This document shows positions 1,947 to 30,042 of a stretch of 64,000 nt of DNA, in pieces; the stretch's first letter is position 1, and each line of letters begins with the position of its first letter. The translations under genes and the position numbers were made by a program. This DNA comes from Atopsyche davidsoni (Eukaryota > Arthropoda > Insecta > Trichoptera > Hydrobiosidae): the NCBI GenBank assembly GCA_022113835.1, contig JAILWY010000010.1, positions 3,249,501 through 3,313,500 on the forward strand, read 5' to 3'. Under the pieces are notes generated by a model that saw only the letters and a list, made by a program, of their open reading frames with translations, was not told the DNA's origin and did no database searches.

Positions 1947-3500
1947 TTAATCGCCTTCGGCGGGCGGTTTCTGGGAAGATGACTCCTCACCTTCGATCTG
2001 AAAACAAATCACAATTTAGCCATCCATAAAGTCAATCCGTGATCCATCAACTTATCATCAATTAACAACATACGGTAACATTCGACTCAGGTTCTTCTTG
2101 GTCATCATCCAGTATAGCTGCGACTTCTAACTGATTTATTATATTCTGTAAGAGTAAATAAATTAATAAATATAATATATGATTATAACACAAAATACAT
2201 TGCCACAGATTTCTTCTTAACACGAAGTGAACTCACGTCGTACTGTGGTTGATAATCCCCGAATAAATCTTTGTCTTCAAAATCACTGAATTCGGGTTCG
2301 ACCTCAGAAGGATGATAAATGGCAACCGGTGGAAGTTTTCTTTTGTCTGCATCTACTAAAAGCGATTCCTCGCTTCCATTGCATTCGGATGATGTTCCCT
2401 GGAAGATTTTTTATAATGTATCTCTTAGAATATTCTCTTAGAATGTATAATAACACTCCATGCACATTGTACAATGTTCGTGCAATCAGACCTCATCGCG
2501 ACTTGACGATGGTTTCTGTAAAACTGATACGATACTTAACATAGAAAATAGATGTAACGGAAAAATATTGCGTACCTCCAACACCGGTACCAGCCACGAA
2601 GTCAAGCTACTGCCGTTTCCGCCAGTGGGACCGAGAAAGTCGATAAGTTCTTCTAGTCGTTTGAATCCGAATTGATTGGGATCAAACTGAAATAAAATAT
2701 TAAATAAATAATTCAATTAAGTTTAGAAAATACACAGCCATATATAAAGTTGAAGATCAACAATCCAAATACCGTTATAGATGTGAACTGATTTCCCGCT
2801 TCATCCGGCATAGCTGCGTTTTCAACGCGGCTGGATGTCGATTCCTGCTGAAGCTGCTCGGTGCAAGTCTACGTTTAATTAATTAATAAATATCAAATCT
2901 TTATCTGCAAATAAATGTTAATATATACTGTGAATAATTGCAACACAAAACTAAAGCGCATCTGTCGTAACTTACTTCCAAAGAATCGCGACGCCGGTCT
3001 GTGTCGGCCATCTTTTCCGGGCTACTCGGACTGCCATCCCCATTGCCCTCTTCGCCCTCTTCGCCCTCTTCGCCCTTGTCGCCCTCGTCGCCCTTGTCGC
3101 CCTCGTCGCTGTCCGAAGACAAAAGACAATCAACTTTTGTTTCACGAGCGTCCTGAAAACGAATCGCGTATCAATTTTACAAACAAAACATTGGATTGAG
3201 TACATTAATCGAAAAAGCGGCAGAAAATCTCACATCGCTGACGGCGTCGCTCGCACTTTGGTCGGGAGTCGCCATTTTATTTTCGTCGTCTTGTGGGTTT
3301 TCGGGACGAGTCGTTGCGTCGGTGTCGCTTTTTGTATTCTGAAAAGATATTTAAAATGTATTGCACGGAATATGCATGAGAGGCTGGAGGGGGTCGCGGT
3401 TTTGCCCAGGGGCTGCTTCTTTGGCTGATTAGTCAAAGAAGCATCTGGAATTTCGGCTGGGCGACCGCCCCCGAGCTACTAGTTGGACACGAACCTCCAT
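1947..3500 (-). CDS. Gene A: type I microexon gene, acidic protein of 267 codons
   Basis: Function unrecognised. I read nine phase-0 coding exons (minus strand, 5' to 3'): 3495-3500, 3234-3338, 2976-3152, 2773-2868, 2576-2686, 2492-2515, 2237-2398, 2074-2145, 1947-1997. Each is flanked by AG and GT and each is divisible by 3; together they give an uninterrupted frame from ATG GAG (Kozak-like CACC before it) to TAA. The first coding exon is 6 nt and the sixth is 24 nt. The product has no signal peptide or membrane segment. Exon 3 encodes an acidic Gly-Asp/Glu repeat, exon 5 a more ordered-looking stretch (FKRLEELIDFLGP) and exon 7 another acidic segment with PEFSDFEDKDLFGDY. Exon-by-exon similarity to gene C, and weaker similarity to E, supports the model. 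The protein is probably intracellular and partly disordered; that is inference from composition. Confidence 0.75.
2492..2515 (-). other. 24-nt microexon of gene A (KPSSSRDE)
   Basis: The acceptor TTTTACAG is followed by 24 nt encoding KPSSSRDE and then the donor GTCTGA. Related sequences survive at 7,411-7,433 (B), 11,311-11,333 (C) and 16,791-16,813 (D), but each has lost a usable acceptor, donor or frame. This identifies the gene A copy as the only apparently functional one in the window. Confidence 0.7.
3044..3112 (-). repeat. 9-bp coding minisatellite in gene A exon 3
   Basis: On the minus strand, 9-nt units of the type GGCGACAAG, GGCGACGAG and GGCGAAGAG are repeated in frame and encode a run of Gly-(Asp/Glu)-(Lys/Glu) triplets. 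The homologous exon of gene C (11,757-11,888) is 45 nt shorter and has fewer, different units. Length change in whole codons keeps the exon symmetric. Confidence 0.85.
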
Positions 3501-4130
3501 GGTGACTTGCGAGGGTCTACAGCTTAACTGACCTTAGGGGCATGGGGTTGTGGGAGGCCGCTGGGGCGCTGGGGCGCCATCTCGCCGCACCTCTGCCGAA
3601 CTCCGCCTACACATCACCTACCCGACTAACCCAAGTCGAAACCAACTTCAGTAAAACTTACTATTATTCAATCTATACTTAACACTGACATTATCGCAAC
3701 AGATAATAATAAAACATTATTGCATCACGCCCCTATCTCCCGCCGCCGCAGCCCGCGTGCATCTCCCGATACTCCATATTTATTTGGAAAAAAGTATGCG
3801 TACTCGTATTTAACGCACTTAGGTTTATTACCTTGCAAGTAATCTAACGAGAACCCATGGCAGTATATTCAACTATATAATATTTACAACATAAATTAAA
3901 ACTGCCCCGAAGTGTCACCGCTATAATAATACTCGTTGCGACACAACTGGCATCTGAAATTAGGACAGGCCAATATTTACAAATGTTACTTGGATGTCTT
4001 ATTTGGTGACGTGAAATTTTTTTTTTTTTAATATTTTTAGTAAAATATTGAAACCTTTTTTCAGAAGTATTTTAGTGTCTGTATTTTTATTTAATTGATA
4101 TAAAATACTTATAAATTATGGATAGATTTA
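3501..4130. other. Upstream region of gene A
   Basis: GC-richer DNA directly upstream of the gene A start, about 3,501-3,780, shares segments with the regions upstream of C (12,243-12,400) and E (23,545-23,720). It presumably holds the 5' untranslated region and promoter. I see no TATA box that I would defend. From about 3,780 the sequence is AT-rich and unassigned. Confidence 0.4.
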
Positions 4131-5185
4131 AAAGTCATCGCTTTAGCGATAGTGCTGTTGACGGTTACATGTCATGGGAGAAATAAAAAAAAGTTTATTA
4201 CATTTTACAAGAAGTTTTATTAGTAATTAAATGAAGATAATTGAATACAAATTGTAGTAGTATAATCAAAGATATTAATAAGGATTATTAGAATTGGCGA
4301 ACACCACACCACCACCACGTCTCCATAAAAAATTAATATTAAGGAAAATACATGTAGAATGTACACGTTTTTACATTTTATTTAATGAAAGTAATTGAAT
4401 ATAAGATACTGCGTATCATAAAACAGAGAAAATGGTACATTAATTAATGAAATTAAGAAGGATTATTAGAATTGGCGATATAATGTCACCTAACAAAATT
4501 AAGATAAAGGAAAATACATGTGGAATGTACACGTTTTCACTTTAACTTTTACAAATAATTTTATTAGTAATTAAATGAAAGTAATTGAATAAAAATTGTA
4601 GTAAGTAATAATATAATGGTACTATAATCAAAGATATTAATAAGGATTATTAGAATTGGCGACAACCACACCACCACGTCTCCAAAAAAAATTAAGATAA
4701 AGGAAAATACATGTGGAATGTACACGTTGTTACTTTAACATTTACAAGTAATTTTATTTAATGAAAACAATGGTACTTTAATTATTGAAATTAGGAAGGA
4801 TTATTAAAATTGGCGATATAATGTCACCAAAAAAAAAGAAGGAAAATACATGTGGAATGTACACGTTTTCACTTTAACATTTACAAATAATTTTATGTAA
4901 TGAAAGTGATTGAATATAAGATACTGAGTATCATAAAACAGATAAAATGGTACTTTAATTAATGAAATTAAGAAGAATTATTAGAATTGGCGATATAATG
5001 TCACCTAAAAAAATTAAGATAAAGGAAAATACATGTGGAATGGAAAGTAATTGAATAAAAGTTATAGTATATAATTGTACTTCAATAAGGTAAGGAAATT
5101 AATAATGATTATAAGAACTGGCGATATAATTTCACCTAAAAATATTAATATGAAGGAATCATATGTGGAATGTAGACGTTTCGTC
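4130..5185. repeat. Array of 140-185 bp AT-rich repeats downstream of gene B
   Basis: At least six imperfect copies of a unit containing GGATTATTAGAATTGGCGA occur at about 4,283, 4,460, 4,644, 4,796, 4,975 and 5,110. Each is followed by a GTCACC-like box or, in two copies, a CCACCACGTCTCC variant, and by GGAAAATACATGTGGAATGT. The left edge (about 4,150) resembles the sequence that follows the orphan 51-nt block elsewhere, but the block itself is missing here. No coding potential seen. Confidence 0.8.
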
Positions 5186-5411
5186 GGCTTCCCTGGCATC
5201 TTCTTCGACGCTTAAAACTTAGGGGTTTTCTTAACTTCTAATATAGGTTTCGAGTTGGAGTTCACTGGAATTCTGTCCGAGTAGAATGAACCTAAAATCC
5301 AAAGGAAATACAGTCATACTTTTACTATCATTCCTACTATAAAAGTATATGTGTACCGCTTCCATTGGAACTATGATACTCACCAGTCGTTTTGACAACT
5401 CTTCTTAAATG

Positions 5412-5417
5412 TTTATT
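5412..5417 (-). promoter_or_regulatory. Poly(A) signal AATAAA of gene B
   Basis: TTTATT on the plus strand, about 100 nt after the gene B stop codon, inside a 3'-end segment that is also conserved in genes A and C. Confidence 0.55.
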
Positions 5418-5514: not shown

Positions 5515-8404
5515 TCACAGGGCAGGAGGTGTCTCTCGAGACTCCGAGCAGGAAGGATCCGAGTCGTCCTGAAAACAAATCACCACCAAATCATTAATTA
5601 AATTAATCCGTACCTGCAGTCATTTTCCATAACTTCATCCGAAATTACTGCAATTTCCTAACGACTAGACAGATATACATATATCTATTTTATTATCTAA
5701 TATTACTCACCTTCTTGGGTTCCTTTTTGTTTGCACCGATACCTGCTATGGCTTCGAGATCTTCGGGATTAAAAGTGGGAGCCTGCAAGATTGATAGAAA
5801 GTTTAACTTAAATGAATGTTTTTCTTGTACGAGAATAGATATTTATCTCATATCACTACACTAGTGCATTACCTCGAACACTGGCACACACTCCATGATT
5901 TCGCGACTGTCCTGAAAAATCATATTTAGAGAGTTAATAAAAAAAAAACTTAAACAGCATAAAACATAAGTTATTTTTATAATATTTACAGTGCTATCAC
6001 ACGCTGAAATGATTACTTCATTGGAATATCCATCAGCAGACAAGTATTCTAATAGACCAGGTCCTGGTGGTAATGGCAGAGGAATAACGCTGGTGGGTGA
6101 TGAGGCCTGTAAGATTTACACGATGAGTTCCTAAAATGAATCTATTTCGTGTAAGATAATAGGTTAATTTCTAAAACTAAAAGTGCATTACCTTGAACAC
6201 TGACTTCTTAGCATGATTGTCGTCATTATCCTGAAAAATCATATTGAGAGAGTTAATAAAAAAAAAACTTAAACAGCATAAAACATAAGTTATTTTTATA
6301 ATATTTACAGTGCTATCACACGCTGAAATGATTACTTCATTGGAATATCCATCAGCAGACAAGTATTCTAATAGACCAGGTCCTGGTGGTAATGGCAGAG
6401 GAATAACGCTGGTGGGTGATGAGGCCTGTAAGATTTACACGATGAGTTCCTAAAATGAATCTATTTCGTGTAAGATAATAGGTTAATTTCTAAAACTAAA
6501 AGTGCATTACCTTGAACACTGACTTCTTAGCATGATTGTCGTCATTATCCTGAAAAATTACATTTAGTGGGTTAATTAAATAATAATAACTTAAACTGCA
6601 TATAAAATTAGTTATTATATAACATTACTTGAGATCCGTCGCGTGCATCTACAGGCAGGACTTTTATTTGGCCAGGATGATGGCAAGTGAATAATGAGGG
6701 TGGGAGACGAACTCTGTAAGATTTAAACGATTAGTATCTAAAATGAATATTTTTCATATACGATAATAGGTTTAATTTTTTAACTACTAGTGCATTACAT
6801 CGGACACTGACTCCCACTCCAGATTTTCGCCACCATCCTGAAAAATAGTATTTACAAGGTTAATTGAAATATATAATCTTAAACAGCATAAAAATCAGTA
6901 AAATTTTTAATATTTACGTCCGTTTCTTCGTCTGTATCTACAGGCGTGTTTTCCAGACGATTTGATAGGTAGGGTCTCTTTGGTGATGACACGTTAACAA
7001 CGAAGTTGGTTGGTGAGCTCTGTAAGATCTACATAATTAATTACTAAAAGAAATCTAATTCATATACGATAATAGGTTTATTTCTTATTTCTAGTGCATT
7101 ACCTCGGACAATAAATCCCAGTCCAAATATCTGTCATCTTCCTGAAAAATAAAATTAAGTTAATTTTGAAAAAAATCCTTAACAGTATAAAAAATTAGTA
7201 ATAAATTAAATGTTTACATCAGGATCATCGCTTGCATCAACAGGCGAGTCTTCTGATTGGCCATATCCTGATGTTGATGGCAGGTTAAGATGGACGGTGG
7301 ATGATGGTTCCTGTAAGATTTACACGATGAATTTCTAAAATATATATGTATATGGGAAAATAATGCACTAAAAACACACATGCACATGAAACAAGGTGTT
7401 TACGATCGAACTTCATCGCGACTTGACGATGGTCTCAGATCATGAATCCAACTTGAACAGGAGGAAAAAAAAAATTAAAAAATACTCCAAAAGTTCAATC
7501 AAATTGTTATCAAAAAATATTTACATATAAATAAAGTTAGAGATAAAACATTAATGACAATGAATTTTTTAAACATTAATGTTTAAAAAAAAAAAAAAAC
7601 TGAAAGTTAAGTTTTTTTTTTTTAAACATTAATGAAAACTTACCATATCACTTGTCGAGTCAACTTGACTAGAAGAAACCGCAATTTCTTCGTTGGATGA
7701 TTCTTTCGCCACATTGGCATCTTTAGGCAATTTCTGAAATGGTTGAATTAAAATTAAAAAAGACAAAAACTCAAGTTAAAAAAGGGTAGCCATTATGCAG
7801 CAAGAATCTGAGACCTGCCAATGACAAAATGGCGTTGTCGTTCTGGAACATTCCATCAAATTCTTATTGGGAAATAAAGCAGTGTGCTCCGGAGTTATTT
7901 AATCAGAATTATTATTGGTTAATAATGGACATAATGCGGCATAATTTACAAAAAAGTCCTTAATGAAATGTGAGCGATGCAGAGTTACAACACTTATTTA
8001 TATATTTTAAAAGAAAAATCATTTTAAAACTTTTTTAAATGAAAAAAATATTTCTTAACGCTACGCACGTGACCTCTGGCGTCCGAGTTGAGTTTTATAC
8101 GGGAATTTCGAAAGTTTCAGACCACTTAACTACTTATTGGGAAATAAACGTGATCTCCGGGGTTAATTAATCAAATCAAATATCTGTGGAGACTGAAAAA
8201 ATTCAGCATAATTCACCATCCAAGTATATTCGTTTTGTCACGAAATATTCAACGTAAGCCAACAGCGCCGCCATTTTAGGGACGCGGCGGGGACGCCATT
8301 TTGAAAAGTAGAAAAAGTTTTTCACACACTGATATTCCGCAAGACATTGACTCTTACAGCCCTATTCTGACTCACAAATACATGAAATTAACACAAACCT
8401 CCAT
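5515..8404 (-). CDS. Gene B: type II microexon gene with duplicated exon pairs
   Basis: Function unrecognised. The start ATG GAG (8399-8404) ends a 5' exon (8399-8520) that has its own acceptor. I then read phase-0 exons 7644-7733, 7218-7310, 7103-7141, 6918-7019, 6799-6837, [6629-6713, damaged], 6511-6549, 6309-6425, 6192-6230, 5990-6106, 5873-5911, 5711-5782 and the terminal 5515-5568 ending in TGA. Exons of 39 nt alternate with exons of 72-117 nt, so the gene is a chain of exon pairs. The exon at 6629-6713 measures 85 nt and would shift the frame; skipping it leaves an open frame of about 281 codons. The short exons encode acidic peptides (for example EDDRYLDWDLLSE). The longer ones carry Ser/Pro-rich segments after a [S]SPT motif. 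No signal peptide, membrane segment or known domain. Exon 1, intron 1 and the microexon remnant match gene D. Confidence 0.65.
5873..6549 (-). repeat. Recent 313-319 bp tandem duplication of an exon pair in gene B
   Basis: The 39-nt exon plus 117-nt exon cassette, with its introns, is present twice in succession (6309-6549 and 5990-6230). The two 117-nt exons (5990-6106 and 6309-6425) and the two DNDDNH-type 39-nt exons look identical, as do most of the adjoining introns. A third 39-nt exon (5873-5911, DSREIMECVPVFE) is related but diverged. Near-identity of exons and introns points to a very recent duplication, or to an assembly artefact to be ruled out. Confidence 0.85.
6629..6713 (-). pseudogene. 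Frame-damaged exon in gene B
   Basis: The conserved acceptor and a GTAATG donor flank an 85-nt segment related to the exon at 7218-7310. The first half reads in phase 0 and the second half (ending PVDARDGSQ) reads in a different frame, as after a single-base indel. Skipping it restores the gene B frame. Confidence 0.6.
7734..8398 (-). other. Intron 1 of gene B
   Basis: A 665-bp intron between the ATG GAG exon and exon 2. A stretch around 7,795-7,850 (containing CCTGCCAATGACAAAATGG on the plus strand) recurs in intron 1 of D near 18,250-18,290 and, diverged, at about 30,400. A short GC-rich patch with GGACGCGGCGGGGACGCC lies at about 8,279. No coding sequence recognised. Confidence 0.5.
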
Positions 8405-8520
8405 AATCAGGTCTGATTGCAAGGATTTGGGTATTTGATGAAGTGCTGTCGTCGATTCTCGACGATCGGTCAATGAGAAGAATTTTCGTTTGTCTGGTTG
8501 GTGCCGCTTACGAAAATTCA

Positions 8521-10333: not shown

Positions 10334-10550
10334 CTACTTCTGCGAGTCCTTCAGAGTCTTGTAAGATGACTCTTTACCTTCGATCTGAAAACAAATCACA
10401 ATTCAGCCATCCATTAAGTCAATCCGTGATCCATCGACTAGTTTATCATCAATTATCAAGATACGGCAACATTCGACTTAGATTATATTTGTTCGTCACC
10501 CGGTATAGCTGCGAATACATCGCGACTTGATATATTCTGTAAGAGTTAAA

Positions 10551-10590
<40 letters not shown>

Positions 10591-12242
10591 TTGTGTGTGT
10601 AAGTGTGTGTAGGAATATATGCATGTATATAAATATATGTTTATATATTTATTTCCTCTTACAGAATATATCATGTATGTATATATATTACGCAAGTGTC
10701 AGTCCGGCGCCATGACACATGTAAAAACATCAGTAGTGTCGACTTTTGCGTGACGTGGTGGGCGTTTATTTTTAGTAGAGGTTTTTTAACTTTGCGTGAA
10801 CCAATCATATTTACCTCTGTAGTTGCTTCATCACCAGAAGAGAATTCTGATATTGCTTTAACTATAACGGGATTCAATCTGGAACCCTGCAAGATTAACA
10901 ATAATTAGTCCAGTTTGTAAAAGAAAATAGGTGTACTTATTACACTACTTGTGCATTGCCACAGCTTTCTTGTTAACACGAAATACACTAACCTTGAAAA
11001 GTGGATGCCAATCAATTTTCTCATTTTTGTCGTGTATATTTGAGGAATTGGAAACCTTAGAAATAATATGTATTATGTATATGTAATATGTATTGAGTTA
11101 ATTCAATAAAAATCCTATATTTATAGAAATTAATAGTAAGTAGTCTTAGTACCCCTGTTGCATTTGTTGGAAGTTTTCTTTGGTGAGTGTCTACTGAAAG
11201 CGATTCTTCGCTTCGTTCGCAGCCGGATGTTTCCTGGAAGATTTTAATAATGTGTATTAATTTGAATATGCTCGAATGAAAAACACTACACGCATATTGT
11301 ACAATCAAACCTCATCGCGACTTGGCGATGGTTGATACGATAATTGATACGATACTGAATAATATAATATAAGATTTACCACGAGCCTCGGCAATATCCA
11401 CGACGGCGAGCTGTTTTCGCCTTCAGGGTCGAAAAAGTCGACAATATCATTTAGTCGCGTAAATCCGCATGGATTGAGGTTGAACTAAAATAAAATATTA
11501 AAAAAATTCAATAAAGTAAAAAGTATACAGTCATATTCAAAGTTAAAGATCAATTCTCCAAATACCGTCATAGTTGTAAGCTGATTTCCCTCATCATCCG
11601 CCATAGCTGCGTTTTCAACGCGGCTGGATGTCGATTCCTGCCGAGGCCGCTTGGAGCGAGTCTACGTTCAATTAATTAATAAATACATTGAATATCTGCA
11701 AATTAATACCGTGAATAATTTCAATACAAAACTGAGGCGCATCTCTCGTAACATACCTCCAAAGAATCGCGACGCCGGTCTGTGGCGGCCATCTTTCTCG
11801 GGCCCCTCGGACGGCCGCCCCCGTCGCCCTTTTCGCCCTTATTTCTATCCTCAGACATAACACAATCATCTTCTGCCTCACGAGCGTCCTGAAAACGAAT
11901 CGCGCATCAATTTCACAACCAACGCATTGGATTGAGTACATTAATCGAAAAAGCGGCAGAAAATCTCACATCGCTGACGGCGTCGCTCGCACATTGGTTG
12001 GGAGTCGCCATTTTATTTTCGTCGTCTTGCGGGTTTTCGGGACGAGGCGCCGCGGCGGTGTCGCGTTTTGTATTCTGAAAAGATATTTATATTTAAAATT
12101 AATTGCACGGAGTATGCATGCGAGGCTGGGGGGGGTCGCGGTTCTGCCCGGGGGCTGCTTCTTTGACTGATTAGTCAAAGGACATCTAGAATTTCGGCCC
12201 ACCGGGCCCCCTTAACTCGATTCGCAGAAAACGCACCCCTTT
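10334..12242 (-). pseudogene. Gene C: decaying type I copy, closest relative of gene A
   Basis: Exons homologous to gene A are at 11970-12074, 11757-11888, 11566-11661, 11380-11484, 11153-11233, 10993-11055, 10815-10886, 10483-10536 and 10334-10384. All but the last two are open, phase 0 and well flanked by splice sites. Four lesions are visible. The ATG GAG start (12237-12242) reads AAA GGG. The microexon at 11,311-11,333 has no AG before it. The exon at 10,536 reaches a TAA at 10,483 that its gene A counterpart lacks. The AATAAA downstream of A reads AATTAT here. An in-frame ATG inside exon 2 (KMATPNQ), in good context and shared with A, could allow a shorter product, so C may still be expressed. 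The exon preceding it and two middle exons (10993-11055, 10815-10886) have no clear match in A, so C is not simply a broken copy. Confidence 0.65.
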
Positions 12243-14340
12243 GGTGACTTGTTAGAATCCGCAGCCTGACTGACCTCTGTCAGGGGGTGGGGGAGGTTGT
12301 GGAGGCTCGTGCCGCCATCCCCGGCCGGCGCGGACACCATCGACTCAACACTCGCGCCCGCTGCGCCTCTACCGGGTTACCGGAATACACATTTCACCAA
12401 AAATTTATTATGATGTGTATAATTTAAATCAGAACTCTTGCGAATTATTTGCGTATTCAGATTTTAAGACAAAATTATGCGTGGTTAATGAATGGTTGGG
12501 TGTCGGAGTCTCGTGATGCGCTAGGGGTTGTAAATTATAAAGTTCCTCCGCTCGGATCAAGTTTGATCTTGCAGTCGGGCTGCTTTGACAAGTTCGATCC
12601 TGTCGAAGAATTGTACACCCTCGCTACATCCCTTCTAATCAATTTCAAAATGGCGCGTTTTTTTCACACACATTTTAATGGCTTCTCGTTGCTCGTCGAA
12701 TTTATTAACTACGAGGTGTCCTATAATCAGAAAATATTTTAAGCTGGAACTCTTTTATCTGAAGTATCTCTTGGTCGTAATTTGGAGCGCCTAAAGAACT
12801 TTTAACGCCGATATTTAACTATAGTTTTATCTCAATCTTTAAAGTCAATACAATTCTTGTGTAAAAACAAATATGATGCCAAATGAGCTCGATTCTAACT
12901 GAGACCTTCAGAGGAAATGTAATATTTCACTTGTCACTGTTGAATTTAATTTTAATTACTGACAGAATACTTGGTGGAGCTCTTTTTTTAATATAATCAC
13001 GTCGGTGTATTGCCAACGTGATTAAAATCATAAAAATATTTTTTTTTCAATATGAAGATTTATATTTATACTCGCTCCGATGCTTGCTCATTTTTTGAGA
13101 AATGTCTTGTTTGCATTCGGCCCAATACTATAAATGCCTTCGGCCGTTCTTGGTAGCCATTTTCCTGTTTACCATATAATATATAATATGGGCTGATTTT
13201 GCGAGGTTCCGAGATTCTCGGATTTATGATATGATTTCATTTTATATAATGGATACTCGCCTTTATTATTTTCTGATATACTCAACCATTGCAAGTACAT
13301 ATAGAACACTGTTATTGCATATTTTTTACATTACGATGTGTATAACATCAGGTTCGCCCTCTGCCGCATAGTTGAATCTTCAACACTTTCTCGATCGATT
13401 ATCCGAATACTCCCCCGTCGTGGCGATTGCAGAACGACGTTTCCAGTGCTTATCTTACTATTCTGATGGAAATTTTATTGGTTTATAAGTAAAATAAATC
13501 GTTTAATACACTTGTGTTCTAATGTCATCGATTATCCAATTATTCGAAATAAATTTAGATTTTCTCGGCCATTGTTAATTTTTTTGTATTATAATTTAAA
13601 TTTTATCAAAACATGAAAATTCTGAAATATTATATAGAATTTTAATTGCAGTCTTGGTCGACAAGCTCAAGCCGGCCTGCCCCTCCCATCTCATTTATTT
13701 AATTTTCAATTTATTTTTATATTTTGAAAGTTGATATGTTTTACAGAATATTAAACAAATTATATATATTTTTTAAAAAATTTAATTCCGATGTTTTTCA
13801 AACTCAAATAAGGTCTTAAAATGACGACTTTTCAAAACCAAAGTTTGTTCAAGATTTTTTCTTTTTTAATTTTTAAACTTAACCTTTGCCGAAGATTACA
13901 CTGTAATCTTTAAATTCCAATTTAAAAAAAAAAGACACTAAATTGTATAGGTTTTCCAGATCCGTCGATCATAATGATCTCCAAATTCCTTGACTTCGAT
14001 AGGGAAAACACATTTATCATATTAAATGTAAATTTATAAGAAATTTAAAAAAAATCTGATCTAGAGAAGATGCAATGTATCTAACTTTTGGCAAAAAAAA
14101 AATTTCTATTGGTGCAGTAGATTTTTCGCAAAATATTTTCTTGAAATATCAAAAAAAACTCGAAAATGGACCCATCAGAAGGATCAGCCCCTTTTACCAC
14201 GGTGGGTGCAGAATGGCGTCTGCGGTGCTGATCTCGTATTGGCCTGCACACCTTGCTCGATACACCTTCGTATTGACGAGGCATGCAGTCAGGGTAGCAA
14301 TTCTCAAGGGATATTCCCACTCACCTATGAATCTGCCGAT
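12243..14340. other. Spacer between genes D and C
   Basis: The part next to C (12,243-12,400) is GC-rich and matches the upstream region of A and E. The rest is AT-rich unique-looking sequence. A 97-codon plus-strand open frame (12,449-12,742) and overlapping frames at 14,075-14,439 have no recognisable similarity and are not called. Confidence 0.4.
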
Positions 14341-17800: not shown

Positions 17801-18835
17801 AATTTGGTCATAGAAATATTTTAAACTAACTTTGTTTTTTTAATTACGGATATAATTTTTTTTTAAATAAAATATACACCAACGACTTAAACAAAGTTAC
17901 CTCGTTTGGGCGCTTCATTGAAAATACCTTCATGTTTTAATTTATTATAAAATTTCTATGATTTTTAGAGCTGCATACAAAAATATATTTAAATATACGC
18001 GTGTTTATTTGCATAAACATTCATTTCGTTCCTTTTTCTTCCTAACCTGCCGTTAGTGTTCCTCAAGAAAAACAAAAATTGTTTATATAAAAATAACACT
18101 AGCTGCAAATCACTTACCGACTCACTCGAAGAAGAATAGTCGCTCTCCGGTGGCATATCTGATATTCCTGATGGTCCTGGTTCGGAATTCTAAAAAAAAA
18201 AATTTAATGAACACAAAACAAACACTTCAAGAAAACAAGAGCGATGGCTCAATAAAAACCTAAGTCCTGCCAACCGTAAAATGGCGTTGACGACGTATTC
18301 ATATTGTAAAATAAAGCAGTGAGCTCCTGATCTAATTGAACAAATGAAATATCAGTGCACATTGACTAATAGAATGAGAATTTTGAATTGTGCGATGCAC
18401 TTTGGTTCAAGTCGAAAAGGGGTCGAAGCCAATTGAATAATTGCACGTCGTCAGACAGTATCGCGGATGCGTTCGTTGACACACTCAACACGGTCTTTCC
18501 CGCCTCGGACGCGCATCGAAACACACTCGCAGTGTTAAAACAACAAAAAAACTTCTAGCCAAAATGCACGGATTCACTAGAGCTGTTGATGAAATGGCAT
18601 CTGCGTTGTTTACTGGATGTGCCGGGTCGGCGTATCTCGCCACGCGGGTGTGTTCGTTATGACGGGGAATATTGAACGCCGGCTAGAGCGACGCCGAACG
18701 CCGATCGCGGCGGGAAGGCAGTTCGCGTGTCGAATTCGCATTAAAAACAATCAACCACGTTGATTTGAGACCGCATTTCGACACCTGCAGCTCTAATCTC
18801 ACTGGCGAGCACGTTGAATCAACACACACCTCCAT
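14824..18835 (-). CDS. Gene D: type II microexon gene, 266 codons
   Basis: Function unrecognised. The start ATG GAG (18830-18835) lies at the end of a 5' exon (18830-18952) with its own acceptor, and an in-frame TGA just upstream supports this start. Then: 18118-18189, 16673-16723, 16538-16594, 16363-16425, 16203-16280, 15958-16086, 15734-15859, 15544-15615, 15386-15457, 15246-15300 and 14824-14843 (TAG). All internal junctions are phase 0 except the last, which is phase 1: the 55-nt penultimate exon and 20-nt terminal exon complement each other and end GEDSPQ, strong support for that splice. The donor at 16,362 (GTAGAT) is weak. Unlike its neighbours the protein is not uniformly acidic: the middle exons are basic or hydrophobic (KIKKR; VVYGFFMA; IWQKLAMMHAMSK), so it may fold. 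No signal peptide. Several exons end in a short hydrophobic residue followed by the conserved donor block GTAAGTT. Confidence 0.75.
15029..15211. mobile_element. hAT-type MITE in gene D last intron
   Basis: A 183-bp element with a tailing GCGACCCCC...GTTTGAAAAACACGG end and a matching inverted left end (CGGTATTTTCCGACC). It is flanked by 8-bp direct repeats TTGTAGAT (15,021-15,028 and 15,212-15,219), the target duplication size of hAT elements. It has no open frame. Confidence 0.75.
16791..16813 (-). pseudogene. Decayed microexon remnant in gene D
   Basis: CATCATCAAGTCGCGATG on the minus strand matches the 24-nt microexon of gene A, but the AG acceptor has become GG and the GAG that precedes the donor is lost. 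It shows that types I and II share an ancestor carrying this exon. Confidence 0.55.
16860..18117 (-). other. Intron 2 of gene D (distal part)
   Basis: Long AT-rich intron with (TA)n runs at about 17,085-17,125. Nothing coding is recognised. Short open frames here are composed of microsatellite sequence. Confidence 0.45.
18190..18829 (-). other. Intron 1 of gene D
   Basis: 640-bp intron after the ATG GAG exon. It is GC-rich between about 18,600 and 18,740 (GAACGCCGGCTAGAGCGACG on the plus strand) and shares the segment near 18,250-18,290 with intron 1 of gene B. Confidence 0.45.
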
Positions 18836-18989
18836 TATCGGGGCGGAATGCACGGATCAAATGGTATTCAGACGCACTGACGACGACTCTCGGCGACCGG
18901 TCACTCGATAATGATCGCCGTTCGTCGGGCTCGCGCTGTCTACGGAGATTTACTGAAACAAACACAAGGTATCAATACATGTATAATTA

Positions 18990-21444: not shown

Positions 21445-23544
21445 CTAAATCTGTGAACAAAGAGAAGTCATGTAACGATCTTACATCGGTAAAGCTGTTG
21501 TTAAGATAATGTTCAAAAGCACTTCTTTAATACCTCATATGGCGGTTTCATCCAAGGAGGCCGATTGCTCTCTTCCTCGTGGACTAACTCCGCGATTACA
21601 CTAGACAGCACTCGATGTACAATCTGATTGTTAAATTCAACCTAAAATTTAAAATTTTTAAAATTATTTAAAAAATCCAAGAAGAACGCACGATCCACAT
21701 TAAAGTTGAAATTTAACTGTCGATATACCGTAATGTTATTTGTGATCTGATGTATACGATTTATCGCATCTTCGTTTGCCGGTGCTGCATGTTCGTCATT
21801 TCCAGATGCTGATTCCTGATTGGTGAGCATACAAGCGTTAAAGTATTAAATAATATTAAAATATATTCATATCTGTAAATTGAAATAAATATGACACCGT
21901 TCATACTGTGAATGATAAAAGTAAGGGGAATCTCTCGAAACTTACAATCAATGAGCTGTGTAGGATAACGTGATATGATACGTCCGGCTGGTCTACGACA
22001 GCTATATCTTCTCCGTCTCTCGGACGGTCACCCTCTTCGTTCTCATCGCAATCCTAAATCAAACAATTATTAATCAATGCCTTACGAGCGACCGGAAAAT
22101 GAATCGGGTATAAAATTTGCATATAATAATCAAGTAATATTCACATAAAACGTTCATAAAATAAATGAAATTAATCGACAAGAGCTGCAGAAAAATGCGC
22201 ATCACTAACGGTATCACTTTCATTTTGGCGGTACTCACCATTATATTCACATACGCCGATTCATCCACTGGTGATCGGCTTACGGGACGACCTACCACGT
22301 CGATAGATTCTTGTGAATCCTAAAAAAACAAAATGGATTAAATACAAAACGAATTACACAGAATATGCAAGAGACCGAGCTGGAGACATGGTCGTGGTTG
22401 GAATAAACATAACACCGTTTTTACTGTTAACGATTGTTATATAAAAAAATCTACGAATCTGCTTTAACTTACATCCAATAAACCGTTTGGGATGGGGACA
22501 TATTCTACCTCGGACGAGTCTATCGAACAGATCTCTATTCGGTCACTCGAAATGTCGATCCTTTCGTCCTCGTCGGAGTCCTTTTAAACAAACAATTATT
22601 CATTATTGCTTTACTAGCGTCCGGAAAATGAATCAGATATCAAATTTGCGCAAATTAATCAAGAAATATTCACATAAAACGTTCATAGGTTAAATAAAAT
22701 TGATCGACAAGAGCTACAGAAAAATACGCATCACTATATCACTTTCATTTTGGCGGTACTCACTACTATATTCATATATTCATCCACTGATGCTCGGCTT
22801 ACGGGACGACTATACATGTCGATAGATTCTTGTGGATCCTAAAAAAACAAAATGGGTTCCACAGGATTACGATGTGAATTACGCAGGATATGCAAGAGAC
22901 AAGATGCAAGAGACCGAGCTGGAGAAATGGTCGTGGTTGGGATAAACATAACACCGTTTTTACTGTTAATGATTGTTATATAAAAAAAATCTACGAATCT
23001 GCTTTAACTTACATCCATTAAATCGTTTGGGACGGGGACAACTGCTTCCTGGGACGAGTCCATCGAGCTGATCTGTATTCTGTAACACGAACAGTTGCTC
23101 CCTTCATTGTCGCTGTCCTAAAGCAAACGACAATTTACTACAAACTCACGCATCGGGTATCAATTTTGCACAAAAATTCAAATAAATGCACACCACTAAC
23201 CGTATCACTTGAACAGTAACAGCGAAAGCACACCACATAAGATTCTTCTTCCATTTCGGTATCAGATTCTTGGCTAACGGGGTGAGTTGTCGCGTCGGTA
23301 ACTTTTCTAAATTCCTGCAAAAAAATTTGCATTAAACCTAAACGAATTGCACAAAATATGTGATGAAGGGGGTCGCGGTTCTGCCCGGTGGCTGCTTTTT
23401 TTTTTACTGATAGAAGCATCTAGAAGCGTCAATGAAGCATCTAGAAGCCTCAAGGAAGCGTTTAGAGTTTCGGCGTTGGTTTGCGGCTCTCCGGGCGACC
23501 GCTTCCCCCCTTCTTAACCCGAAACGCAGGACACGCACCTCCAT
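21445..23544 (-). CDS. Gene E: type I microexon gene with an internally duplicated exon pair
   Basis: Function unrecognised. Start ATG GAG at 23539-23544, then exons 23201-23314, 23013-23117, 22764-22838, 22473-22580, 22239-22319, 21947-22053, 21729-21815, 21534-21641 and probably 21445-21450 (ATT TAG). All internal exons are phase 0 except 21947-22053. By my count that exon is 107 nt rather than 108 and would put TGA just before its donor. That is either a real frameshift or a miscount and must be rechecked. Exons beginning DSD[N/E] alternate with exons beginning D[P/S]QESID, an older tandem duplication. The last two long exons resemble gene A exons 4 and 5 (ending NNIT and starting xFNNQI). 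The first long exon contains a Cys-rich patch (VVCFRCYCSSDT) and the next CSCY. The protein is acidic overall with no signal peptide. Confidence 0.58.
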
Positions 23545-24193
23545 GGTTACTTGTTCGAATCCGTAGCCTTACTGGCCTACTACCGGGGCTGAGGGAGGTT
23601 AGAAGTCGACTGATCACTCGCGCCCACTGCGCCTCTGCCGGACACCTCTGTTCGGAAATGATCCTGTCCGCCATTTCGTGGCACACACATGCACCCCGAT
23701 ATATTCAAATAAAAACTAATACCAAAAACACCATGCGCGTTTATTCAAAATTACAATACAAAACACTAGCGTGTTTTTTATATTATTTTTCTGATTGTAT
23801 GTGAACATCAAATGTGTTAATTACACATCAAATATAATCGTTTTTTTTTTTTTCATTGCAGTTTTGTTGAATTTATTTGTATGAAAGCATTGCGTATTTT
23901 TTTGTATAATATATATATTAGAAAACTATGAAGTGTGCTTTTGTGGATATCAGTTTACACCTTTTAGATAATATAAAAAAAACAGCAATTGTAACCTTCC
24001 ACCAGATCTGGTTATGTTGAGCGGACAAGATGAAATAATATGAAGATTATAGAATACGCTCCGAGGGCTGCAAAACCTTGGACTCTAATCGTCCCAAAGC
24101 ACCGGCCAATGAGTATCATGAGGTGGCTGAGACATCTAGGCAAACCACAAATATTATAAGTTATCAAAATAGTTTCTTAGAGATCCGTGTATA
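23545..24193. other. Upstream region of gene E
   Basis: 23,545-23,720 is GC-rich and matches the upstream regions of A and C, so it likely holds the promoter and 5' untranslated sequence. A 107-codon plus-strand frame across it is antisense shadow. 23,720-24,193 is AT-rich with nothing recognised. Confidence 0.4.
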
Positions 24194-24725
24194 GAGTGGC
24201 CAAAAAGAGCATCGGGTGAATGTGAATAGTGACCGTTATTGCGATATGCTGCGAAAATATTTGAACCTAGAGTTGCAGGAGTATCAAGATTTCAACTCAA
24301 GAACGAGGTTCCAACTTGCCATACATCCAATCAAATAATTGAAGCTGTTAACGAATTATTCCCATATAAGGTCATTTCACGTAGAGGTAACATTAACTGG
24401 CCTCCCAGAAGCCCCGACCTTAGCCCTCTTGACTATTTCGTATGGGGATACTTTAAAAGTAGAGTTTATGAGAATAATCCGACGAACCTAACGGAATTGA
24501 AACCAAACATTAGGTCAGAAATGGCAGCAATATTGAGGGCTATGTATCAGCGTGTTGTCAGCAATCTTCGTTCCAGATTAGAAGAGTGCCAGCAGCGTTA
24601 CGATCACCATTTAGATAACATCATCTTTATAAAATAATTTTTCATTTTGTATTCTTATAAACTTGATTACTAGTAGTTTTTATTTTACCGAACTAACAAA
24701 TACCCAATACTTTCTTTGGACACCC
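24194..24725 (+). mobile_element. Internally deleted Tc1/mariner-like element
   Basis: The ends GAGTGGCCAAAAAGAGC and CTTTCTTTGGACACCC are imperfect inverted repeats flanked by TA. A 132-codon frame (24,239-24,634) encodes the C-terminal part of an IS630/Tc1-type DDE transposase. The motif NWPPRSPDLSPLDYFVWGYF at about residue 57 contains one catalytic Asp, and a typical C-terminal tail follows. The N-terminal DNA-binding region and the first catalytic Asp are absent, so it is non-autonomous. The same deletion structure is seen in the copy at 41.9 kb. Confidence 0.8.
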
Positions 24726-24994: not shown

Positions 24995-27900
24995 CTAGTC
25001 ACTCATCGAGATTGAATCGCTGTCGCCATTCAGTTTCTGAATTAATACTACATTTAATCCCTGTTTACCGAAAACATACTCTTAATAACTTAAGTACAGA
25101 ATAAATTAATGAAAATAAATTTCACAGTCTCTGAGCTCTAAACTAAATGGAATTAAATTTTAAATTAATCGTATTTAAATACGTTGAATCGCTGTCGCCA
25201 TTCTGTTTCTTAATAAATATTATATTGAATCCCTGTTTACCGAAAACATACTCTTAATAACTTAAATACAGAATAAATTAATGAAAATAAATTTCACAGT
25301 CTCTGAGCTCTAAACTAAATGGGATGAAATTTAAAGTTAATTGTATTTAAATACGTTAAATCGCTGTCGCCATTCTGTTTTTTAATAAATATTATATTGA
25401 ATCCCTTTTTACAGAAAACAAACACTTAATTACCTTAGTACGGAATAAATTTATGAAAATAAATTTCACAGTCTCTGAGCTCTCAACTAAATGGGATGAA
25501 ATTTAAAGTTAATCGTATTTAAATACGTTGAATCGCTGTCGGTATTCTGTTTCTTAATAAATATTATATTGAATCCCTGTTTACCGAAAACATACTCTTA
25601 ATAACTTAAAAACAGAATAAATTAATGAAAATAAATTTCACAGTCTCTGAGCTCTAAACTAAATGGGATGATATTTAAAATTAATCGGATTTAAATACAT
25701 AGAGAAACCAATTTAATATAACATTAATATTTTAAAAAGTCTTCTTCGTTCATATTTAACAAATAAGATTTATTTCCCTACCTAAAATAATATTGATATG
25801 TTTGCAAAAGTAAGTTAACAGGTGTGTAAAATATTATTGAATAACCGATAATTAATTCACTCGTCGATTTTCAATTCACTTTTGTTAGAAGAGTCTACCG
25901 TGGACGCACCCGTCACTTTCACCATATAATTAATGTATTAACTTATATAGATAAGATTATTTGTATTGTTACTGGATTTGAAGTCCTCGCAAACTGTAAT
26001 TACACACCCACAGACAAATTTGACGAATAATGGGGTTTTTAAAAAAATAACTCATCTTCTATGATGAACATATACTCGTATTAACACTACACAACAATAA
26101 AACTAACTTAATGTACAAAGATCGCCGAACACTACAATAATATTTGAACATTTTATAATATTTGTATGTTCTTCTATGTTTATAAAAGTAAAGACAAAAA
26201 TATCATATACAATTAATTTTAAAATAAAAATTATTTATACAGCAATTGAAACGTTTGTACTAAGAAATACAGATGCTTTCGCTTCGACTTCTCCAGTTCA
26301 TGGGTATTTTTGCAATTTGTTTGATAGTTTTTCGTTCTTCTTGTGTATATTTTTCTGTAAATAAAAAAACGGAATCAATTAATAATCTTATACACTTTGG
26401 CCGTCCTTCAATACAAAACATCGAAGCAGTTCGTGAGAGACTTTGTGACATCAATTCGGCTCGTGGTCATGAATTGGACATTTAGAGATGCTCTCTAAAG
26501 CAAATTGACACGAAAGATTTGCTCACAATATTAATTGACTGAAGAACTGAAGTCTGCTGACCACGCCCAGTGAATAGAGTTCGATAAATGGAATATGGAA
26601 CAACAAGAGGATGCTGATATTTCTAACAAAATCACCTTCAGCAATGAGGCTCATTTTCATCTCGGTGGCTTAATTGATCGACAAAATTGTCGAATAAACA
26701 TTTTAGAAATCTACAAGGGATTTTGAGAAACTAATGCATCTACGCTGCTGGTGATTCACTGTTTGGTGCAGATTTTGGGCTGGTGGCACCTTCGAACCAT
26801 TCATCCTCAAAAATGCGGCTGATCAAGCAATAAAATAGTGTTCGCTATCGAGACACGACAAACAAATTTGTGTGCCTGAATTACGAAAAATGTATGTGAA
26901 CAACATTAAAAATAAAAAAAAATCATATATAATCTCACCTCCGAAGGATGTTCGTCATTCGTTTCAATATTATTCGCTTACATCATCAGAAGAAACCACG
27001 TAGCTAACATTTCTGTAAAAAATCTACATATCACATTATAAGTATGATTTTATTAGTGTATATATGTATGTATAAAAAAACATCAATTCAGTGTACCTCA
27101 GTCAAAAGAATGTTTTCTGTTTCAGAATCTAATCGTGCCGTGATTCCATCGCCTCCCGGTGTGGGTTCCTGTAAGATGTACACAATGAGTATCTAAAATG
27201 TACTTCCTGAATAAGAAAAAATAGTCCATTAAAAACACAACATGTACATTAAGCATACTTTGAGCGAACAGAATGTGACTAAAAATGCAAATTTTAATTC
27301 AGCTCTGCAGCATGTCATGTAACTTACATCGTCAAGTGGAAGCACTTGCTCAGAAACAACGCTTTCCTCCTCTGTTTCTTCCTTAACCTGCATCACAGTC
27401 TCCTGAAAAATAATATTTATTAAGTGAATCCTATAAAACTTCCAAATTATTAAGCAAGACCAATTTTTATAATTCAATTTACTTCTCTATCAAGCATTAC
27501 CTCTGTATTTTCTGACATTTCACACGAAGCTTCGTAATCATTGCTTCGTGGTGGCGATCCCTGTAATATTTACAAAAAAAGCATCTTAAGTGTACTTCCT
27601 GGTTATGAAAATAGTCTTATAAAAACACACTTGTGCTATGTACTTGGTTTGTGAGATCAGACTGCGACTAAATTTGCACATTTTAACTAAGCTCTGCAGC
27701 GTGTCGTCTAACTTACATAACTATATAGAAGCTCCTGCTCAGAAACATCGTTTTCATCCACAACTTCTCCAGATACCCGCGTCTCAATCTCCTGATGAGG
27801 CTCAACTTGCTCAGAAACAACGCTCTCCTCCTCTGTTTCTTCCTTAACCTGCATCACAGTCTCCTGAAAAATAATATTTATTAAGTGAATCCTATAAAAC

Positions 27901-30042
27901 TTCCAAATTATTAAGCAAGACCAATTTTTATAATTCAATTTACTTCTCTATCAAGCATTACCTCTGTATTTTCTGACATTTCACACGAAGCTTCGTAATC
28001 ATTGCTTCGTGGTGGCGATCCCTGTAATATTTACAAAAAAAGCATCTTAAGTGTACTTCCTGGTTATGAAAATAGTCTTATAAAAACACACTTGTGCTAT
28101 GTACTTGGTTTGTGAGATCAGACTGCGACTAAATTCGCACATTTTAACTAAGCTCTGCAGCGTGTCGTCTAACTTACATAACTATATAGAAGCTCCTGCT
28201 CAGAAACATCGTTTTCATCCACAACTTCTCCAGATACCCGCGTCTCAATCTCCTGATGAGGCTCAACTTGCTCAGAAACAACGCTCTCCTCCTCTGTTTC
28301 TTCCTTAATCTGCATCACAGTCTCCTGAAAAATAATATTTATTAAGTGAATCCTATAAAACTTCCAAATTATTAAGCAAGACCAATTTTTATAATTCAAT
28401 TTACTTCTCTATCACGCATTCCCTCTGTATTTTCTGACATTTCACACGAAGCTTCGTAATCATCGCTTCGTGGTGGCGATCCCTGTAATATTTACACAAA
28501 AACCATCTTAAGTGTACTTCCTGGTTATGAAAATAGTCTTATAAAACACACTTGTGCAATGTACTTGGTTTGTGAGATCAGACTGCGACTAAATTCGCAC
28601 ATTTTAACTAAGCTCTGCAGCGTGTCGTCTAACTTACATAACTATATAGAAGCTCCTGCTCAGAATCATCGTTTTCATCCACAACTTCTCCAGATACCCG
28701 CGTCTCAATCTCCTGATGAGGCTCAACTTGCTCAGAAACAACGCTCTCCTCCTCTGTTTCTTCCTTAACCTGCATCACAGTCTCCTGAAAAATAATATTT
28801 ATTAAGTGAATCCTATAAAACTTCCAAATTATTAAGCAAGACCAATTTTTATAATTCAATTTACTTCTCTATCAAGCATTACCTCTGTATTTTCTGACAT
28901 TTCACAGGAAGCTTCGTAATCATCGCTTCGTGGTGGCGATCTCTGTAATATTTACACAAAAAGCATCTTAAGTGTACTTCCTGGTTATGAAAATAGTCTT
29001 ATAAAAACACACTTGTACAATGTGCTTGGTTTGTGAGATCAGACTGCGATTAAATTCGAACATTTTAATTAAGCTCTGCAGCGTGTCGTCTAACTTACAT
29101 CGTTATGTGTATGCGTATGGTCAGAAACATCGTTTCCCTCCTCAATTTCATCAATGATCTGCATCTGATGGTCCTGAAAAATAATATTTATTGAGTGAAT
29201 CTTATAAGACTCCCAAATTCTTAAGCAAGAACAATGATAATTAATAAATTTACTACTGTATCATGCATTACCTCTGATTCAATGGCTATATTTTCTGATA
29301 TTTCGGATATAGCCGAATAATTATTGCTTCCTGGTGGGGTTCCCTGTAAGATTTACACGATGATCATTTTAATGTACTTCCTGAATATGAGAAACTAGTC
29401 CATTATAAATACAGCTTGTACATTCTGCATGGCTTGAGCAAATAGACCGTGACTAAATTACCCACGTTTTAATTTAACTCTGCAGCGTGTCGTGTAACTT
29501 ACATCGTTATGTGGAAGTTCCTGCTCAGAAATATTGATTTCTTCCTCAATTTCTTCATTTGCCTGCACCTCACGGTCCTGAAAAATTATATTTATTGAGT
29601 GAATCTTATGAGTTCCAAATTCTTAAGACCAATGATAATTAATCAAATCACTACTCAATTACGCATTACCTCCATTCCATCGATCGTATTATCTGACAAT
29701 TCGCATGAAGCTTCGTAATCATCGCTTTCTGGATCTGGCCAGGGAGTCTCCTGTAAGATTCTCAAGATGAGCATCTAAAATGTACAATTGTGCATGGTTT
29801 GTGCAATCAGAATGTGACTAAATACGCACATTTCAATTATGCTCTACAACGTGTCATGTAACTAACATAGTAAGGTGGAAGCAATAATAATATATATAGA
29901 GTGAATCTTATAAGTCTTCCTATTTCTTAGACAATATGAAAATTTAGTTATCTTTTTTCTATATTTACGTGTTTTGAAATATGTCTTTTGTTCATTTTTA
30001 GAACAGGCTTCTTTTCTAGTCGTCTGCGTCCTGATGATTTTC
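24995..30042 (-). CDS. Gene F: 5'-truncated type II microexon gene with triplicated exon pair
   Basis: Function unrecognised. Phase-0 exons read 5' to 3': 29670-29750, 29503-29577, 29272-29343, 29099-29173, 28883-28942, 28638-28784, 28423-28482, 28178-28324, 27962-28021, 27717-27863, 27501-27560, 27328-27402, 27097-27168 and a probable terminal exon 24995-25036 (KLNGDSDSISMSD, stop). A further upstream exon at 30,016-30,042 runs into TAG after ENHQDADD. Remnants of exon 2 (about 30,300-30,357) and of intron 1 (about 30,400) resemble type II genes but contain stops. No ATG GAG is found, so the 5' end is decayed or replaced. The exon repeat encodes acidic peptides such as KEETEEESVVSEQ. One duplicate has a broken donor (GG instead of GT at 28,421-28,422). 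The last intron holds a transposon relic and the 172-bp repeats, so joining of the terminal exon is tentative. Confidence 0.5.
25012..25695 (-). repeat. Four-copy 172-bp tandem repeat containing the F terminal exon
   Basis: Copies start at about 25,012, 25,184, 25,357 and 25,529, each opening with TGAATCGCTGTCG or a close variant and including ATTTCACAGTCTCTGAGCTC. The first copy carries the intact terminal exon (acceptor TTAATTCAG, stop TAG). The others have lost the TCAG acceptor. A diverged fifth copy lies at about 30,945-31,130 at the end of gene G. Confidence 0.85.
25700..26375. other. AT-rich stretch inside the last intron of gene F
   Basis: AT-rich sequence with short open frames only. 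No repeat or coding match recognised. Confidence 0.4.
26380..26890 (+). pseudogene. Decayed Tc1/mariner-like transposase
   Basis: Fragments in several plus-strand frames resemble a DDE transposase: HFGRPSIQNIEAVRERL, then NKITFSNEAHFHLGG, then FTVWCRFWAGGTFEPFILKN, then NSVRYRDTTNKF. The Asp normally found in the SDEAHFH motif is Asn here, and several stops and frameshifts separate the fragments. It belongs to the same broad group as the 24.2-kb element and is clearly older. Confidence 0.75.
26950..27011 (-). pseudogene. Degenerate exon in gene F
   Basis: An acceptor TTTTTTACAG and a donor GAG-GTGAGA flank a segment ending NDEHPSE in one frame but with stops in phase 0. It looks like a decayed family exon, or it uses the internal GTAAGC donor at about 26,980. 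Confidence 0.4.
27501..28942 (-). repeat. 460-bp exon-pair cassette repeated three times, plus a partial copy
   Basis: The cassette (147-nt exon plus 60-nt exon, with both introns) has copies with 147-nt exons at 28638-28784, 28178-28324 and 27717-27863, spaced 460-461 bp. Partner 60-nt exons are at 28883, 28423, 27962 and 27501. A shorter 75-nt relative of the long exon (27328-27402) closes the series and shares its first 60 nt. Introns are nearly identical too. Plus-strand open frames over the copies are antisense shadows. Confidence 0.9.

Follow-up and report, generated by a model that had tools for sequence, protein, structure and literature searches.

Tandem microexon genes in the insect Atopsyche davidsoni with introns better conserved than exons

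Introduction

What kind of gene is strung together from dozens of very short exons, and how could its introns come to be more alike than the exons between them? The question is raised by a 64,000-nucleotide (nt) stretch of the trichopteran insect Atopsyche davidsoni (C10:3249501-3313500 of an assembly of 370.7 Mb in 80 contigs), called the window below; negative positions lie to its left. A preliminary description made from the letters of the window alone had proposed six minus-strand microexon genes, A to F, and the end of a seventh, G, belonging to no recognised family. Here, the tandem array of microexon genes is confirmed; very probably its genes are real, or were so until recently. The description overlooked that their introns are better conserved than their exons, that they contain repeated cassettes and that B, C and F are damaged. 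The genes probably represent a lineage-restricted insect family produced by duplication of cassettes and of whole genes, in which exons were diversified by selection while introns changed slowly.

Results

Exons were sought as AG...GT pairs scored with generic splice matrices and fixed scores, and were chained by length class and frame. With a base-composition term, the minus strand of 1.9-30.6 kb gave 44 exons with a length divisible by three and open from the first base (score 256.6), against 28 exons (score 152.7) for the next length and frame class in the same scan. A chance control was restricted to exons of 36-200 nt with a splice score >5 and omitted the composition term; under these settings the array contained 37 phase-0 exons on the minus strand and 2 on the plus strand, the next-best length and frame class on the minus strand held 20, and an equal-sized flank (35.9-64 kb) had 1 and 0 phase-0 exons on its two strands. 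Forty dinucleotide shuffles of the array yielded 1.7 +/- 1.5 phase-0 exons and never more than 6, which contradicts chance open frames and bears out the tandem array originally proposed.

The exons listed number 9 in A, 14 in B, 10 in C, 12 in D, 10 in E and 14 in F, i.e. 69 in the window, where more than 55 had been counted before; a further gene outside the window, H, has 6. When joined, the 9 exons of A and the 12 of D reproduce the reported frames of 267 and 266 codons. Internal exons of A-F and H, a count that takes in the first listed exon of F and the doubtful exons A6 and C6, are divisible by three in 60 of 62 cases and range from 24 to 177 nt (median 78); the exceptions are exon 7 of B (85 nt) and exon 11 of D (55 nt), the frame of which closes in exon 12. 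All introns of A, D, E and H are phase 0 with the sole exception of the last in D (phase 1), and every internal exon of these genes is phase 0 (A 7, D 10, E 8, H 4). Listed introns are mostly short, 57 of 68 being 76-185 nt long.

The limits first given to the array, 1947 to 30042, were too narrow, as likeness to it extends to about -27.5 kb, some 27 kb past the window, farther mariner-like fragments excluded. H is represented there by five copies with 5' exons at -959, -5562, -11238, -16449 and -21660, the first of which has lost an internal stretch. In this H region the chance control did not single out phase 0 (8 phase-0 exons against 18 in the best class), which we ascribe to near-identical copies repeating each chance match. 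At the other end, the exon-like stretch at 30042 attributed to G is present, but it is one exon only, encoding ENHQDADD and then a stop.

Repetition is also evident inside the genes. In F, 300-nt stretches recur every 461/460 nt and are 92-100% alike, and in B a 300-nt stretch recurs at 319 nt with 98% likeness. By eye, many introns are of two kinds, one starting GTAAGTTRCATGACACGCTGCATA and the other ending TTTACTNAATAAATATTATTTTTCAG or near it, and a repeat commonly comprises two exons with two introns. Fifty-seven introns of 40-200 nt, trimmed of splice signals and with first introns excluded, were compared in 1596 pairs together with the exons on either side. The introns were kindred (z > 6) in 84 pairs, among which the upstream exon also exceeded this value in 42 and the downstream exon in 32; every pair with such exons came either from within one gene (F, B or E) or from the comparison of A with C. 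Leaving A-C aside, 23 pairs of kindred introns joined different genes at a median identity of 0.80 (0.74-0.93), and their flanking exons reached z > 3 in 1 of 46 comparisons, compared to a background of 89 of 2854 for exons beside unlike introns. The same is seen within D (10 kindred pairs, identity 0.82, flanking exons z > 3 in 1 of 20) and within H (2 pairs, identity 0.79, 0 of 4). In these pairs, exons beside kindred introns are therefore no more alike than random exon pairs. The D introns at 16672-16595, 16537-16426, 16202-16087, 15957-15860 and 15733-15616, for example, are 80-93% identical where compared and the exons between them are unlike. Around D7 and D8 the introns match at 165 of 190 positions; the two exons match at 70 of 109 in a gapped alignment, which is at chance level (z 1.8), and are alike mainly in their last ~20 nt.

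Introns also proved to be the part by which distant relatives can be found. Match counts from DNA searches with the gene bodies of D, A and F are lower bounds. The body of D gave at least 24 matches. Apart from D itself these comprised 12 in the H copies, 1 in A, 1 in B, 6 in a second cluster about 450 kb from the array (C10:3.7226-3.7310 Mb) and 3 in a decayed copy at C13:14.380 Mb, on another contig, where the first matching exon has an in-frame stop by eye. Among the non-self matches listed, 17 of 23 fall in the introns of D to within 6 nt, and it was these intron matches that led to the second cluster and the third locus. For A, the matches listed were to itself, to C (2), E (1) and D (1), and one each to the second cluster and C13; those listed for F were confined to F and 150 adjoining bases. 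The second cluster contains genes I (L042) and J (L043), each with four phase-0 exons at equivalent positions. In I and J respectively these read EEETLNTISSYEFDMRKIY and EEETMNSMPRNKKPKMSKRD (exon 1), GEPAENIIVIS and GERVAEVINLIS (exon 2), DDETTDAPDHDASSSNLLKANLARLW and DDEMSDDDFDTMRRKLIMAHFTRLE (exon 3), and NAKTIDVSDDDDSSDVLPKIDCSTME and SPSTMHFSDDNDSE (exon 4). Phase and kindred introns are common to I, J and the array, and the exons are other; exon 3 of I is similar to exon 6 of D (DDETTDIPDHQNLWSGLPEMGLARLA), which shows that likeness is not lost in every exon. By eye, the last acceptor of J is GG where AG is expected.

Divergence at nonsynonymous (pN) and synonymous (pS) sites was obtained from Nei-Gojobori counts and set beside that of introns (pI); codon alignments were built regardless of amino-acid similarity, and the Fisher tests assume independent sites. 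Five comparisons were pooled, picked as non-overlapping after the first results were seen: exons 2-5 of A and C (pN 0.177, pS 0.161, introns 0.131), E3/E4 with E5/E6 (0.218, 0.107, 0.113), B4-B6 together with B3-B5 (0.400, 0.207, 0.202), F1/2 with F3/4 (0.322, 0.275, 0.186) and I with J (0.294, 0.248, 0.130). pN was the largest value in all five, and the pooled figures (pN 0.252, pS 0.187, pI 0.143) gave one-sided p values of 0.019 for pN > pS and 7e-10 for pN > pI. pN also exceeded pS in A-C with exon 7 added, in E5-E7, F3-F5, B4-B8, B6-B8 and B8-B12 and, among single exons of A-C, in 3 and 4. Near-identical H copies depart from that at -5562 proportionally more in exons than elsewhere: those at -11238 and -16449 at 6 of 447 exonic bases and 9 of 1753 others, and that at -21660 at 10 of 447 and 12 of 1753; some of the changes lie next to one another and could have arisen as single events.

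The predicted proteins of A, D, E and H are acidic, as stated before (isoelectric point 4.1-4.9, aspartate plus glutamate 16-26%). Hydropathy, the only measure used for this purpose, showed no hydrophobic N-terminus in six models (A, D, E, H and alternative A and E), where the best 12-residue N-terminal value was -0.97 to 1.12 and the best 19-residue value 0.99, in agreement with the earlier view that a signal peptide is not seen. Nor was a known domain found: Pfam gave no match for A, D, H or pieces of B, C and F, and for a 262-residue stretch of E only DUF7377 at an expectation of 0.1, below cut-off. A search of the PDB with D returned nothing significant (two matches, at expectations of 1.6 and 1.7), and PHROGs had no match to D. 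Eleven weak PHROGs matches to A (0.0025-0.06), mostly to tail fibre families, run through or near a DKGDEG repeat and were set aside as low complexity. Viral contigs searched with protein D and with a mariner-like open reading frame gave one pattern match each, neither confirmed.

Two further details of the preliminary description found no support in the form given. A first coding exon of only Met-Glu had been taken as a distinguishing mark; in A, C and E, rival first exons in phase 0 (16, 22 and 34 codons) lie a short way upstream and join in frame to exon 2 (Table 1), and at the corresponding place C reads AAAGGG and has no ATG. Donor scores of the rival exons in A, C and E are 4.5, 3.6 and 1.8, against 0.9, 1.8 and 4.2 at the ATGGAG places (AAAGGG in C), so the Met-Glu donor is the better one in E. 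The Met-Glu exon fits D best, where the frame is closed just upstream of the ATG; in B and H the frame is open through the whole 5' exon upstream of it. Met-Glu is thus not established as the first exon. The 24-nt exon 6 of A is probably an intronic motif, since the same motif (approximately ACCATCRTCAAGTCGCGATGRNGTCTGATYG) lies in introns of B, C and D, ahead of cassettes, at 7433, 11332 and 16813 on the minus strand and, by eye, at L041, L042 and L043; the copy in C is not preceded by AG. An RNA hairpin was considered for this motif and dropped, the seven copies showing no clear covariation by eye. Among other parts of the models, the last exon of E is doubtful (the preceding intron is 39 nt), the start of F is uncertain, the donor of its possible first exon scores about 0, and the F exon with the GG donor has another in-frame donor 18 nt on (to 28405).

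Discussion

Acidic proteins encoded by clustered, rapidly evolving genes with small phase-0 exons are familiar from the vertebrate SCPP/casein genes, whose products are secreted; this likeness is one of description only. Hessian fly genes for small secreted salivary gland proteins (SSSGP) are likewise tandem, with conserved non-coding sequence, introns included, and a super-diversified mature coding part for which positive selection was reported (PMC2955719). SSSGP-2, with 35 introns in about 950 coding nt, must likewise be built of short exons (PMC2955719). Such a shared mode, in which tandem genes keep their non-coding sequence while the coding sequence is super-diversified, does not itself prove kinship. 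The groups described for SSSGP have a conserved signal-peptide region, whereas none is seen by hydropathy in the present models, an upstream exon being possible for B and H; furthermore, the pattern here extends to cassettes of a single gene, and introns of intact models are phase 0 with one exception. By this comparison, the Hessian fly genes are the nearest precedent in mode of evolution.

Aphid bicycle genes are similar in their many small internal exons of uniform phase, fast evolution and lack of similarity to proteins of known function (PMC9168663, PMC13041983). Nearly all their internal exons are phase 2 and many have an N-terminal signal sequence (PMC9168663), in contrast to the phase-0 internal exons of A, D, E and H. 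The published gene-structure classifier, with its published coefficients (PMC9168663), scored A at -40.1, D at -48.6, E at -43.5 and H at -19.9; given their alternative first exons, A scored -41.3 and E -46.1. By their opposite phase and strongly negative scores these are not bicycle genes, in line with the first suggestion of a different family. The KQY/KHI cassette effectors of the pea aphid also derive divergent coding sequence from miniature exons, but have a conserved signal peptide, and among the rows listed their genes span 12-87 kb with introns from 180 nt to >9 kb (PMC7495047); by eye, KQY or KHI residues are absent from the N-termini of the array. Schistosome microexon genes (MEGs) share short symmetric exons suited to frame-neutral skipping; symmetric exons of 6-36 nt make up about 80% of their coding sequence, and nearly all their products are secreted or membrane-anchored (PMC5825161). 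Exons of the array are also symmetric (60/62), yet longer (24-177 nt, median 78), and no hydrophobic N-terminus was seen. Among the titles and abstract openings listed from openly accessible papers on microexon, bicycle and effector genes, none describes a phase-0 family of this kind without a signal peptide. In our assessment the family matches nothing in the libraries searched, its mode of evolution has precedent, and the novelty lies in a phase-0 cassette form without a visible secretion signal.

On the reading preferred here, a gene would be a string of short phase-0 exons grown by tandem duplication of exon-intron cassettes, often of two exons with the two intron kinds, and whole genes would later have been duplicated in tandem. 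The sequence itself establishes that nearly all cassettes start and end between codons, so that gain, loss or skipping of one keeps the frame. After duplication, introns would diverge slowly, at a rate equal to or somewhat lower than that of flanking DNA, and exons would be driven apart by diversifying selection on the protein, which we infer from pN exceeding both pS and intron divergence. The products would be acidic proteins, with no secretion signal as far as tested, and most likely take part in an arms race that favours protein variety, whether with a host, pathogen, symbiont or selfish element, or in reproduction.

Several observations weigh against diversification of exons by selection as the whole account. 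The excess of pN over pS is modest (one-sided, pooled) and not general: pN is below pS in F1-F5, F5/6-F11/12, F5/6-F7/8 and F5/6-F9/10 and in exons 2 and 5 of A-C, and pS is above pN in D6-I3, D6-J3 and D3-I1, where 16-26 codons are compared and the alignment is uncertain. Between the shortened H copy at -959 and that at -5562, differences number 0 in 168 exonic positions and 2 in 960 others. Several genes are damaged: exon 7 of B is not in frame, the start codon of A is missing from C and one F donor is GG. pS exceeds pI in four of the five pooled comparisons (one-sided p=0.066), a tendency not accounted for by selection on amino acids alone. Finally, flanking DNA is no better and partly worse conserved than introns (3' flank 75% against introns at 76-93% for D-H; 3' flank 68-78% against about 88% for A-C; flank 77-84% for B-H), which suggests that introns may be constrained or homogenised. 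The simplest reading is one of diversified exons beside slow introns, to which selection, homogenisation and intron constraint may each contribute.

The last of these points lead to the strongest alternative, improbable on balance but to be taken seriously, in which introns are the odd part: gene conversion or splicing constraint would keep neighbours alike and exons would drift under weak constraint. The excess of pS over pI, clear in D6-I3 and D6-J3, and the introns' lead over the flanks both favour it, although for A-C the latter is limited by identities of 88% over the 67 nt after the stop of A and 82% over 190 nt upstream. Concerted homogenisation was proposed by the Hessian fly authors for a like pattern (PMC2955719). 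Against it, drift alone cannot produce pN > pS, and introns are also conserved in the genes about 450 kb away. Gene conversion should be rarer between genes so far apart.

Two further alternatives are each unlikely. One is an intracellular combinatorial system, in which interchangeable phase-0 cassettes, multiplied in tandem, would be joined in varied selections by alternative splicing, so that each gene yields a repertoire of variable, non-secreted acidic proteins, with the conserved introns regulating the joining. The other, no more probable, is that these are secreted effectors of the bicycle, MEG or cassette type with a missed signal-peptide exon upstream. An upstream coding exon is possible where the 5' exon is open ahead of the ATG, as in B and H, and the mode of evolution matches that of secreted salivary families; set against this, the six N-termini tested are not hydrophobic, and A, D, E and H have internal exons in phase 0 throughout where those of bicycle genes are nearly all phase 2.

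It is less likely still that the array is a decaying, non-functional tandem repeat that once bore genes. The damage in B, C and F, the internal deletion in one H copy and, by eye, the C13 stop and the GG acceptor of J are of the kind expected from decay, but the frames of A, D, E and H run uninterrupted from start to stop, internal exons vary in length and yet 60 of 62 are divisible by three, and neutral decay would give pN = pS. Chance open frames in a repetitive region or transposon are very improbable indeed, for although mariner- and hAT-like fragments lie nearby (24233-24637 and 50791-51132, with Pfam matches below cut-off or to other models), shuffles never approached the exon count of the array and no Pfam family scored above cut-off for A, D, H, the stretch of E or the pieces of B, C and F.

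Gene finders based on protein similarity or on conservation of coding sequence may miss such genes, and their introns can serve as search queries instead. The family offers a natural test of the extent to which exons can out-diverge introns, and of whether selection, gene conversion or splicing constraint drives this. Should the proteins act inside cells, a pattern tied in the papers cited here to secreted effectors would be widened.

Gene models and neighbouring features

Table 1. Gene models, exons and the recurring motif in the window, by position in the window.
Feature	Positions	Strand	Description
Gene A	1947..3580	-	9 exons, 267 aa joined with the Met-Glu start; 259 codons without exon 6
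A exons	3500-3495 (Met-Glu) or 3580-3533 (MAPQRPSGLPQPHAPK), 3338-3234, 3152-2976, 2868-2773, 2686-2576, 2515-2492 (doubtful), 2398-2237, 2145-2074, 1997-1947 (stop)	-	
Gene B	5515..8520	-	Two-exon cassettes; 5' exon 8520-8399 ends ATGGAG
B exons after 5' exon	7733-7644, 7310-7218, 7141-7103, 7019-6918, 6837-6799, 6713-6629 (85 nt, out of frame), 6549-6511, 6425-6309, 6230-6192, 6106-5990, 5911-5873, 5782-5711, 5568-5515 (stop)	-	
Gene C	10483..12340	-	Paralogue of A; possible first exon 12340-12275 (MVSAPAGDGGTSLHNLPHPLTE); ATG absent at Met-Glu place
C exons after first	12074-11970, 11888-11757, 11661-11566, 11484-11380, 11233-11153, 11055-10993, 10886-10815, 10536-10483 (stop)	-	
Gene D	14824..18952	-	12 exons, 266 aa; 5' exon 18952-18830 ends ATGGAG
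D exons after 5' exon	18189-18118, 16723-16673, 16594-16538, 16425-16363, 16280-16203, 16086-15958, 15859-15734, 15615-15544, 15457-15386, 15300-15246, 14843-14824 (stop)	-	
Gene E	21468..23674	-	First exon 23544-23539 (Met-Glu) or 23674-23573 (MADRIISEQ...; MADRIISEQRCPAEAQWARVISRLLTSLSPGSRP); tandem cassettes E3/E4, E5/E6
E exons after first	23314-23201, 23117-23013, 22838-22764, 22580-22473, 22319-22239, 22053-21946, 21815-21729, 21641-21534, 21494-21468 (last, doubtful)	-	
Gene F	27004..30332	-	Cassettes of two exons repeating at 461/460 nt; may begin with exon 30332-30273 (MSTEKNKPTNAMNGTVIFSL, weak donor)
F exons after first	29750-29670, 29577-29503, 29343-29272, 29173-29099, 28942-28883, 28784-28638, 28482-28423 (donor GG), 28324-28178, 28021-27962, 27863-27717, 27560-27501, 27402-27328, 27168-27097, 27012-27004 (stop)	-	
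End of gene G	30016..30042	-	Single exon-like stretch, ENHQDADD then stop
24-nt motif (A exon 6)	2515-2492	-	Recurring; probably intronic

Around the genes, two plus-strand stretches at 24233-24637 and 41665-42192 are presumably remnants of mariner-like transposases, although Pfam gave none above cut-off, and more mariner-like pieces lie near -69 kb and -28 kb. A plus-strand stretch at 50791-51132 is like the C-terminus of a hAT transposase (Pfam Dimer_Tnp_hAT at an expectation of 0.072, below cut-off). A tandem repeat with a 172-nt period occupies 25012-25827, where 300-nt copies match the first at 66-92%. Neither Rfam, at gathering scores, nor ARAGORN found anything in the window. To the left, from about -72.6 to -69.4 kb on the plus strand, are open frames which we take to resemble exons of an adhesion protein of the immunoglobulin/fibronectin type, for example insect Sidestep.

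Elsewhere in the assembly, two mitochondrial contigs, C75 (L026, L044) and C77 (L024), exceed the usual mitochondrial genome at 31.8 and 51.2 kb and have an identical ND6 translation. Both show what is presumably the ancestral insect gene order, one that would exclude most moths. Frame breaks in some genes of C77 suggest that it may be a noisy concatemer.

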